From assembly GCA_913049555.1 (NCBI GenBank), contig CAJWYM010000035.1, positions 1 through 39,950 on the forward strand: a stretch of 39,950 bases of DNA, in the 5' to 3' direction. Every line of letters starts with the position of its first letter. Position 1 is the stretch's first letter. A model generated the notes under the pieces. That model did no database searches, was not told the origin of the DNA, and worked only from the letters and a program-made list of their open reading frames with translations. The DNA is from an uncultured Opitutia bacterium (GTDB lineage Bacteria > Verrucomicrobiota > Verrucomicrobiia > Opitutales > CAJWYM01). Both the position numbers and the translations under genes were made by a program. This document shows positions 15,025 through 18,233 of the stretch, in pieces.

Positions 15025-15345
15025 TCAATCTATTTGAATAGGAATCTTTTTTGATTCAGGAGCGGGGTTTTGCTTTGCTGCAAACTTTTGAACCAAACCT
15101 TTTGCTGAATTGGCCAAAGTCCCCTTTTTTAACCCTGCCAATGATGGCTTAGTAAGTTTGGAACCGACTGCAGCTGCTTGGTTGGATTCTCGAATAGAAT
15201 CTAAGATTTCTTTGCGAAGAATGGAAATGCTTCTCGGAGCCTGAATCCCTATCTTAACGGTTTCACCCTCGATTTTGGTGATCCGTATTTCAATATTTTC
15301 TCCTATTACAATTGCTTCGTCTGCTTTTCTTGAAAGAATCAGCAT
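15025..15345 (-). CDS. csrA: Translational regulator CsrA with C-terminal extension
   Basis: CsrA binds GGA motifs in mRNA leaders and blocks translation. The first 60 or so residues match the family: [20 protein letters not shown], then [18 protein letters not shown], keeping the Arg of the RNA-binding R.E element. The product is 106 aa, longer than the usual 60-75. The extra tail is Lys/Ala/Gly-rich and basic (about residues 63-106). In the FliW-dependent type of CsrA, C-terminal extensions are known and contribute to FliW binding. The gene overlaps fliW by 7 nt (ATGCTGA), so the pair is translationally coupled and is the last part of the minus-strand flagellar block. Confidence 0.93.
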
Positions 15346-15797
15346 GCGGTTGTTCCTTGCTCAGCGGCTTCAGTCAAAGAGAACCTTGCAGAGTATTTAT
15401 CGTGATTATTGATAATAATCTGCTTACCTCTGCGAGTTCTTCTATTAATAACGAGGGGTCCAACTAAATTTGCAGTGATGTGTTCCCCTTTTTCAGTATT
15501 TCCAAGAGTGACAATATTGAGAATGAACGGAATTTCATCTTCGATAATTTCTAGGTATTCAACATCAGCATCCGGAATTTCTATGATGTAATCAGGAATA
15601 ATGCCATTGGGTTCCAATACAACAAATGCCATACCTTCTGGATGAAGTTCGCGAAGCCACATGAATGGCAATTCCTCTTGATCAAAAACGATTTCCATCT
15701 CCGTAAGATCTGGAAAGCCAAAAAGCCCTTGGGGGAGCTTAAAAACACTGTTTGTGTCTTGAACTTCTGCTTGTTTTAATTGTGCGTCGTATTGCAT
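15339..15797 (-). CDS. fliW: Flagellar assembly factor FliW, CsrA antagonist
   Basis: FliW binds CsrA and, when released by flagellin export, restores or blocks flagellin translation. The 152 aa product shows [11 protein letters not shown] near residues 21-31, then [20 protein letters not shown] and later [20 protein letters not shown] with [19 protein letters not shown], all typical. I chose the ATG at 15797 because it places GLFGF at residues 24-28, matching the position of the GIPGF motif in Bacillus FliW. A TTG at 15818 would add 7 residues and overlap flgL. No good Shine-Dalgarno supports either. Confidence 0.92.
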
Positions 15798-15804
15798 AAA
15801 TGTT

Positions 15805-17346
15805 TTAAATGTAATCAAGTAATGAGTTGCCTAAAAGCCCAGAAGAGGTCTGAAGGGCAACTGTGTAAGCAGTTTGAGCCCGTGTAAGTTTAATCATTGC
15901 TTCCGCAAGATCAATATCCACATCGTTCGAGATTTGTTGTTCTTTTTGTAAAAATAATTGGGATTCGAAATCGGAACTTGATTTGACCCTCAACTGTTTT
16001 CCACTGAGTTCAGCCAATTGTCCTAAAACGTCGTCTTCATAATTTTGTAAGCTACTTTCAATACTAATCATGCTCTCCGGAACTTTGCTGTTGTCACCAT
16101 CCAATGCATTTCTCAAATCCATTAAATTTTTAATTGCGGAAACAAAGGTTGAATTGTTATTGGAATCCAAATGTGCGGATATTTTTGAATCATTGCCTAT
16201 GTAAAATTCCGCAGAATTTGTGTTTCCATCATAACTAACAGCAGCAATTCTATCTTCAGTTGTTATTGTGACACTCGCGCTTGAGTAGTTGCTTCCTGTA
16301 GAATCCACTATAATTTCTGCAAGGCTTCCGCTGATTTGGGAGTTAGCAATCGCCCCGGAACCGGCGGTTGAGCTGAATGAAATTGTAGGAGGGGTATCAT
16401 ACCCCTTGCCGGCGGTCGTTACACTCAGAGCACTGATTATACCGCTAGTATTTCCACTAGCAGAAACCGTTGAAATGGAAACAGAGGCTGTTTGAGCATC
16501 CGAGAGAACATGCTGCCAATTGACTGAACCATCTGTAGCCTCCCCCGAAGTGTGAGATAAAGTCGTAGAACCGGAGGTGCCCGCTTGAGTGGCGCGGTAG
16601 ATGTTGGTCCCCACCATTACTCTATCTCCAACACTGTAGGAGGACGATGCCGTCCATGCAGCTGCAGGTGGCGAAACAGAAACAGTGTCAGTGGTTGCAT
16701 ACCCGCTTCCTCCATTAATCAAATGAAACGTAGGCACACCATTGATAACAGCGGTTGCGGATGCACCACTTCCTACTCCAGCGTTGTCGGCTATCGTCAC
16801 TTTTGGGGGAAGATTGTAATTCGTTCCAGCACTACTAAGACTGATAGCAGTGACGGCACTGCTTACCGTTGAAGCGGAAGCGACAGCACCAGAACCAGAT
16901 TCAGTAGTTTTTACAAATGGTTTTGTACCGGTTTTAGTTCCCGCAAATAGAAAATTTCCCTGAAAAGATGCGTTGGATCGATTGACTGCCTCCTCTAACA
17001 ATTGATCTACTTCTTCTACATAAGCTGAGTAAGAATTTTGGTTCACGCCAGAAGCACCAATTCTAGCTATCTCCATAGCCCGAACATTCAATTCCTGCAG
17101 TTTTTCTAAATTCAGAATACTTGCATTGATGATGTCCTCTGCGTGTCCGTTGTTTCTCCTGTACTGGATGAGTTCTCTCTTTTCAGACTCTAACTTTGTG
17201 ACTCGCCCAAATTTAACACCGTCATCTGAAGGTTTTGTTATTTTCTGATTGGTAGCGACTTGCTCCTGTGCTTCAAGCTGGGCTTTTTGAGCATCTTGAA
17301 TGTTGCGAAGTAGTTTGTCGGTAAGATTTATATTTGTAACTCTCAT
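15805..17346 (-). CDS. flgL: Hook-filament junction protein FlgL with a large central insertion
   Basis: FlgL joins hook and filament. The N-terminal D0/D1 part (residues 1-145) is typical: MRVTNINLTDKLL, KITKPSDDG, and the FlgL-specific FQGNFLFAGTKTGTKPF. The C-terminal D1/D0 part (about 367-513) has AVSYDGNTNSAEFYIG, DIDLAEAMIKL and the ending GLLGNSLLDYI. Between them lie about 215 extra residues, making the protein 513 aa instead of about 300. The insert holds two related Gly/Ser/Thr-rich units with a GxxY..pP pattern, flanking a module with YSVGDRVMVGTNIYRATQAG and DGSVNWQHV, which looks like segments of phage tail and carbohydrate-binding proteins. It probably forms a surface-exposed domain. 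Flagellin is a less likely alternative. Confidence 0.88.
   Translation of the reverse strand: MRVTNINLTDKLLRNIQDAQKAQLEAQEQVATNQKITKPSDDGVKFGRVTKLESEKRELIQYRRNNGHAEDIINASILNLEKLQELNVRAMEIARIGASGVNQNSYSAYVEEVDQLLEEAVNRSNASFQGNFLFAGTKTGTKPFVKTTESGSGAVASASTVSSAVTAISLSSAGTNYNLPPKVTIADNAGVGSGASATAVINGVPTFHLINGGSGYATTDTVSVSPPAAAWTASSSYSVGDRVMVGTNIYRATQAGTSGSTTLSHTSGEATDGSVNWQHVLSDAQTASVSISTVSASGNTSGIISALSVTTAGKGYDTPPTISFSSTAGSGAIANSQISGSLAEIIVDSTGSNYSSASVTITTEDRIAAVSYDGNTNSAEFYIGNDSKISAHLDSNNNSTFVSAIKNLMDLRNALDGDNSKVPESMISIESSLQNYEDDVLGQLAELSGKQLRVKSSSDFESQLFLQKEQQISNDVDIDLAEAMIKLTRAQTAYTVALQTSSGLLGNSLLDYI
16249..16899 (-). other. Region encoding the inserted phage-tail-like domain of FlgL
   Basis: These bases code for FlgL residues of about 150-366. 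Unit 1 (about 168-227) and unit 2 (about 307-362) share the pattern GxxYxxPPxxxxxxxxxGSGA, followed by a second GSxY strand. The module between them (about 230-280) has W, SYSVGD, IYRATQAGTSGS and DGSVNW. Composition is Gly/Ser/Thr-rich, unlike the helical ends of the protein. Confidence 0.7.
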
Positions 17347-17395
17347 AGGATAATCATTCTCTTTTCATTTGAGGGTTTCTTGGTAATGATGTCCC

Positions 17396-17896
17396 TTATA
17401 CGTTGGCTTCTACAGAAACTCCCTTGGAAGCCACTCGTCCCTTTCGATCATAAGTTGCTATTCTATTCTGGGGATTGGCATTGCGTAACACTTGGTCTGT
17501 GACTTCAGACATTTTAACCAGCAATTGTTGATTTTGATTTAATTTTGTCTTAGCAAATTTAATCAAGTCGTTGATTTCCGAAATAATTCCCTCAAACATG
17601 GGTTTGCTGTTGGTTGGAAATACATTCAACATTTCACTCAGTGTGCTTGCTTGGTTTTTACCAGCTTCAATAGCAAGTTGGGTCACAAGTCTTTGCCTAT
17701 TTGTTAAGATTTTTTGGTTCATTTCTATCTGTGATTCAACCGATTTATTCAAGTCCATCAAATCATTGGGTTCACGGGCTAGGATCTTTTTTTGTTGTTC
17801 TACCAGCAAACCCACTAAACCCCCATATTCTTGAAGTTCACTTCTCAAGACTTCTAATAAGGTTTCCCATGGATATGATTCCAAATTGCTGTTCAT
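17396..17896 (-). CDS. flgN: FlgN-like flagellar export chaperone
   Basis: FlgN-type chaperones escort the hook-junction proteins FlgK and FlgL to the export gate. The 166 aa product is almost entirely helical and coiled-coil-like (WETLLEVLRSELQEYGGLVG, LVEQQKKILAREPNDLMDLN) and ends in a short basic tail. The heptad-type helix followed by LVEQQKKIL and LMDLNKSVESQIE resembles the FlgN family, and it lies directly upstream of flgL. Sequence identity to known members cannot be judged by eye, so position carries much weight. The reading frame extends upstream to 18025, but that would run far into flgJ; the ATG at 17896, one base after the flgJ stop, is preferred (17914 is possible). Confidence 0.75.
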   Translation of the reverse strand: MNSNLESYPWETLLEVLRSELQEYGGLVGLLVEQQKKILAREPNDLMDLNKSVESQIEMNQKILTNRQRLVTQLAIEAGKNQASTLSEMLNVFPTNSKPMFEGIISEINDLIKFAKTKLNQNQQLLVKMSEVTDQVLRNANPQNRIATYDRKGRVASKGVSVEANV

Positions 17897-17897
17897 G

Positions 17898-18233
17898 TTA
17901 TTTAATTTTACCATTTTCCGTTTTGGTTTGAAGTTGAACTTGAAGTGCATGAGCGAATCCAAATGAACTGGATTGAGTAATATTATCAGCCAGCGCATCT
18001 GTAAATAAAGAGCGATACATGGCATGTTTTGCCGTGTTTTCTCCTAGAATTCCTTTAAAAATCGGTTTGAGTCCATCTTCCAAATACTGTTTTACTAAAA
18101 CCGTTTCAAATTGTCGGGACATTTCAGCAATCTTTTCATCAGCAGTGATTCCTTTGGCATGAATCATTTCTCGCAGAGCGGTAGTGTCCGATGCGATTGC
18201 GGTTGTGTTCGTGGATGCGATTCCAATACTCAT
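17898..18233 (-). CDS. flgJ: Rod-binding protein, FlgJ N-terminal domain only
   Basis: This 111 aa protein corresponds to the rod-capping domain of FlgJ. The family pattern is visible at ADEKIAEMSRQFETVLVKQY (residues 31-50), then KHAMYRSLFTDALADNITQS and SFGFAHALQVQL near the end. The peptidoglycan hydrolase domain that follows in enterobacterial FlgJ is missing, as in many non-enterobacterial species where a separate enzyme opens the wall. It lies between flgI and flgN, 9 nt after flgI. Confidence 0.87.
   Translation of the reverse strand: MSIGIASTNTTAIASDTTALREMIHAKGITADEKIAEMSRQFETVLVKQYLEDGLKPIFKGILGENTAKHAMYRSLFTDALADNITQSSSFGFAHALQVQLQTKTENGKIK

Follow-up and report, generated by a model that had tools for sequence, protein, structure and literature searches.

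What does a flagellar junction protein do with a large block of residues that does not belong to its core, and where does such a block come from? This question is raised by the window, a stretch of 39,950 nucleotides from an uncultured marine Opitutia bacterium, in which the hook-filament junction protein FlgL carries ~217 additional residues in its middle. Much work exists on the variable domains of flagellins; the ring at the junction mostly passes for a passive adaptor. A sequence-only reading of the same DNA had described an insertion resembling phage-tail and carbohydrate-binding modules, and had proposed that it is displayed on the surface and binds there. It was right on the place and on the resemblance, while its interpretation is half supported, namely with respect to the modules.

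FlgL identity and the reality of the insert

The profile match of the protein to FlgL lies marginally above the threshold: TIGR02550 reaches a total of 129.3 bits (cut-off 127.2), spread over two stretches, the best of which covers residues 2-155. Flagellin_N matches at residues 9-139, and residues 1-147 of Campylobacter jejuni FlgL (9gsx) align with residues 1-146. Both flanks (residues 1-148 and 367-513) can be aligned as FlgL to the proteins of relatives, and the insert had thus been placed correctly at 16249-16899 (residues 150-366). On the same strand the genes follow each other in the order flgH-flgI-flgJ-flgN-flgL-fliW-csrA, of which flgN, fliW and csrA were named by eye (Table 1). Flagellin profiles find their genes elsewhere in the genome, mainly on contig G000:C43, and flgK lies on a separate contig (G000:C4:29809-31140); thus the window protein is FlgL and not a misnamed flagellin. 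Its core is intact and the insert is in frame. At the window locus flgK does not adjoin flgL (window 17346-17396), unlike in those loci of families f2, f3, f5 and f18 that were read.

The insert spans residues ~147-366 and contains a ~40-residue repeat four times, as one pair on either side of a single ~56-residue module. These units are of the small, probably beta-stranded kind that marine cyanophages have in their tail and baseplate proteins. It is rich in Ser, Thr, Ala and Gly and contains no Cys. The window comes from a draft genome of 102 pieces, of which it is one contig, and in such a genome assembly or binning might create a chimeric ORF. We consider the probability of such an artefact negligible: the same 513-aa ORF recurs in the independent MAG contig PBSV01000041.1 with one residue different (N248H), and both contigs are 99.5% identical over 6 kb, across the insert as well, and most differences within the ORF are synonymous. 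Consequently, the insert is not an assembly artefact and this explanation was rejected. The second contig (L031) belongs to the window's species, yet was assigned to the bin of a genome from a different family (MAG NP78 = G269), probably as bin contamination. The NAD synthetase of G269 is only 59% identical to that of the window.

Table 1. Features of the flgL locus in the window, and the enlarged FlgLs of the sister family
Feature	Position	Strand	Basis
flgL, hook-filament junction protein, 513 aa	15805..17346	minus	ORF; TIGR02550 above cut-off
N-terminal FlgL core, residues 1-146	16909..17346	minus	24-49% identity to relatives
Repeat pair A, residues 147-222, two GxxY...PP...GSGA units	16681..16908	minus	cyanophage-gp7 HMM
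Middle module, residues 228-283, phage-tail type, likely CBM5/12-like fold	16498..16665	minus	viral-module HMM
Repeat pair B, residues 293-360	16267..16470	minus	cyanophage-gp7 HMM
C-terminal FlgL core, residues 367-513	15808..16248	minus	23-41% identity to relatives
flgN-like chaperone gene, directly upstream of flgL, start codon uncertain	17396..18025	minus	ORF, gene order, sequence by eye
fliW, overlaps flgL end	15339..15818	minus	ORF; named by eye (sequence, gene order)
Giant FlgLs of family f2: L032, L033, L067-L073, L075-L081, L086-L096			

Virion repeats around a phage-tail module

Repeat and module fragments were misaligned by MAFFT when put into one alignment, and the two folds were therefore predicted separately. 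An AF2 model of the whole insert was poor (pLDDT 38) and was left out of the Foldseek search.

The repeats were examined with an HMM built from 69 repeat units of cyanophage gp7, containing no bacterial sequence. In the window FlgL this profile detects four such units (residues 147-184, 180-222, 293-323 and 319-357) with a total of 71.1 bits, while the best of 500 shuffled inserts scored 9.4 bits. The sequence-only reading had recognized two related repeats around a central module; two pairs are now confirmed. In viral contigs, one site of gp7 shares 35-47% identity with pair A, and a different one 32-38% with pair B. Virion proteins of the PHROGs collection match the window protein with E values down to 2e-16. 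Judged by these profile matches, the four repeats are homologous to gp7-type virion repeats. The known counterpart is thus the T4-like baseplate wedge protein gp7 of cyanophages (Kyanoviridae), which shares the repeat unit at two sites (32-47% identity); its repeats sit in virion genes of 19-22 kb, whereas those of the window sit in a flagellar protein.

The middle module, at residues 228-283, reaches 55.5 bits with an HMM that contains viral modules exclusively (best of 1040 shuffles: 10.6), and the closest solved relative is the tailspike of cyanophage Pam1 (PDB 7eea, E 1.3e-6). The core of the AF2 model has a pLDDT >90, and Foldseek, run on this module, returned 7eea as significant match (TMq 0.67, rmsd 1.6 A, 40% identity). 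Many predicted phage tail fibres match the fold as well. In addition, the module is 49% identical to a stretch within gp18 tail sheath proteins of cyanophages, where it likewise lies inside a tube-forming protein (L212:2925-5327, L213:2922-5327). We regard the phage-tail homology of the middle module as firm, with the difference that in gp18 and Pam1 it is part of a virus tail and here of a flagellum. The resemblance to phage tails that had been noticed by eye is thus borne out by virion proteins of the PHROGs, gp7, tail sheath and tailspike alike.

The resemblance to carbohydrate-binding modules is a more divided matter. After Pam1, the Foldseek list continues with the chitin-binding domains of chitinases and of chitin deacetylases, at probabilities of 0.6-0.99 but E values of 0.2-1.5, which are not significant. 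The module shares with CBM family 5/12 the motif W...Y..GD.V...Y.A, and on the basis of the model a CBM5/12 fold is likely. However, membership in the Pfam family does not hold: the score of 18.2-20.5 bits stays below the gathering cut-off of CBM_5_12 (PF02839), which is 26.2 bits, and the second half of the module is a different one (SHTSG..DGSVNW). In chitinases, the chitin-binding CBM5/12 domains have two exposed Trp residues (WW) following the YxA strand. In the middle module this pair is absent, and YRATQAGTSGS, without any aromatic residue, is found at that place. Because of the Pfam score and the missing Trp pair, chitin binding is not implied. Of the proposed CBM5/12 resemblance, a likely fold (hits with E > 0.1) is retained and the family is not.

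FlgL in relatives and the giant inserts of family f2

Elsewhere in the order, FlgL of most families has ~300 residues and only a linker of 6-27 residues at the site of the insert; linkers of 63-144 residues in L053/L083, L062 and L082 are the exceptions. As had been asked, the region does vary, and strongly so, among the aligned FlgLs of the order. The earlier idea that other modules fill the place of D2 stands as far as an insert is indeed there, but not as a replacement of D2, given the short linkers of most relatives. No NCBIfam family matches the insert alone, and phmmer of the insert against the PDB finds no FlgL. By these comparisons the insert is a gained domain and not a replaced D2. 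An ordinary D2/D3 domain present in all relatives, or the lack of any structural match, would have spoken against the original interpretation; we found neither.

The more surprising part, absent from the earlier reading, concerns a whole family. It is the sister lineage, f2: each of its 27 FlgLs for which the matches listed contain both ends has 645-1213 inserted residues at the site used in the window. With 936-1500 aa they are the longest of all FlgLs compared. Shorter f2 frames end at contig ends where examined, and a rare short f2 FlgL may exist. A Pfam scan of seven of these proteins gave a CBM_5_12 match, weak or better, in every one and above the cut-off in three. Towards their C-terminal end, the f2 inserts contain one copy that resembles the window repeat, for which the gp7 phage profile yields 5.7-18.4 bits per protein, in 21 of the 27 above all 1040 shuffles.

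One gain or several

In a tree of the FlgL core only, the window (family f1) is sister to f2 with moderate support (87/70), while the insert-free family f18 branches outside (92/73). This placement suggests, as simplest reading, a single ancient gain before the split of f1 and f2, followed by growth to 650-1200 residues in f2. Alternatively, both lineages might have taken popular extracellular modules independently into the same site of FlgL. The limited support of the sister relation points in this direction, as do the different order and number of modules and a repeat HMM trained on f2, which gives no signal for the window repeats. The shared insertion site, the presence of both module types in each lineage and the sister position in the core tree argue against it, and we see independent gains as a possibility that deserves to be kept in mind without being favored. 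The homology of the f1 and f2 inserts is likewise not proven, because the f2 repeat is weak against the phage profile and the f2-trained profile misses the window.

Origin of the modules

A direct capture from a cyanophage-like virus would explain the make-up of the insert, with pairs A and B stemming from two gp7 sites and the middle module from a tail protein. The identities to separate gp7 sites reported above fit such a scenario, as do a top viral repeat score of 42.9 bits and the matches in the phage database, almost all of which are cyanophages. With E 10, tblastn of the insert found 316 records in the phage collection, nearly all of cyanophages, while none remained at E 1e-5. Scans of viral contigs with the raw insert gave no relatives, whereas those with phage-derived alignments did; profile searches are thus the sensitive route to viral relatives. 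The GC content of the insert (0.50 vs 0.37-0.40 in the FlgL ends) might be taken as a further hint. However, third positions differ less (0.40 vs 0.32-0.34), and the excess mostly reflects the abundance of Ser, Ala, Thr and Gly, so it is not convincing as a sign of recent transfer. Furthermore, the low identities imply that any such event would be old, and many Opitutia and further Verrucomicrobiota possess the repeat as well, in large proteins of secreted or surface type (best score 39 bits). Bacterial and phage scores being similar, the donor cannot be polarised, and we consider a direct viral capture unlikely. Among the large proteins of this kind that carry the GxxY repeat in other Opitutia are L038, L039, L041 and L042; in L039 and L041 the repeat is N-terminal, straight after a signal-like segment.

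A putative collar at the hook-filament junction

In Salmonella, the distal layer of the hook-filament junction consists of 11 FlgL subunits, which lack the bulky D2 of C. jejuni FlgL (PMC12221982). FlgL of Xanthomonas campestris possesses a variable, exposed D2, which in an assembly model decorates the ring and whose function was untested there, while Bacillus cereus FlgL has no D2 (PMC6155364). The D2 domains of X. campestris (a beta-sandwich) and C. jejuni are, like the window insert, variable and follow the N-terminal core, and they point outward, as the insert probably does too; the insert in contrast is composed of phage-virion repeats and a CBM5/12-like module and shows no sequence match to them. 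By analogy with these solved FlgL structures (PMC6155364, PMC12221982), from which we infer surface exposure, the insert would be a decoration domain on the outward side of FlgL, where other bacteria carry the variable D2. That it is an exposed decoration is quite probable. If the ring comprises 11 subunits as in Salmonella, 11 copies of the insert would stand at one fixed place per flagellum, and an exposed decoration collar at the junction, presumably of 11 copies, is in our view the best explanation overall and a likely one.

What such a collar does is less certain. Most likely it would offer surfaces to which particles, polysaccharide or chitin-like material can bind; stiffening and shielding of the junction would be the alternative. 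Binding is a reasonable hypothesis because CBM-like modules are found in f2 and the same modules in phage tail proteins. As a claim of its own, putative binding of glycans or surfaces by the collar is tentative. On the other hand, the insert might be neutral or structural filler, an ordinary hypervariable D2 that does no more than add bulk, stabilise the junction or provide variation in antigens and for escape from phages. D2 of FlgL varies and is missing from some species (PMC6155364), the composition of the insert with its small residues and without Cys would suit such a role, and the gp7-type repeat serves as structural padding in virion proteins. Against filler speak the retention of very long inserts in f2, several of which hold CBM5/12-like modules above the Pfam cut-off, and the expense of up to 1200 residues in every subunit, which suggests some benefit. 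We regard filler as conceivable and as somewhat improbable. One might speculate further that the junction became a binding collar, with modules gained once and then expanded in f2 to FlgLs of 936-1500 aa, giving 11 adhesive arms; this full scenario is doubtful at present.

Foreign domains in flagellar axial proteins are known, as is a variable FlgL D2; the make-up in the window and in f2 is new. In flagellinolysin a protease occupies the hypervariable region of flagellin (PMC5595980). There, the carrier is a flagellin present in thousands of copies and the domain an enzyme, while here it is FlgL, present as a ring, and no enzyme. Among the papers searched, none described FlgL with carbohydrate-binding inserts. 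Phage-tail-type modules in the junction ring, with up to 1200 extra residues in f2, suggest that the junction has a further function and that phage tails and flagella draw on a common set of parts. For work on glycan or particle binding, the window insert offers a concrete protein fragment.

Two further observations touch on f2. Flagellin-like ORFs of ~945-1035 aa occur in this family (G293:C35, G273:C3, G237:C85, G285:C58, G249:C32, G026:C58), which suggests that enlarged flagellins are present there as well. Within PHROGs, phrog_28924, a family of 769 residues without functional annotation, aligns with the FlgL N-terminus and the C-terminus of f2 FlgL, and is thus a flagellin/FlgL-like protein in a viral set.
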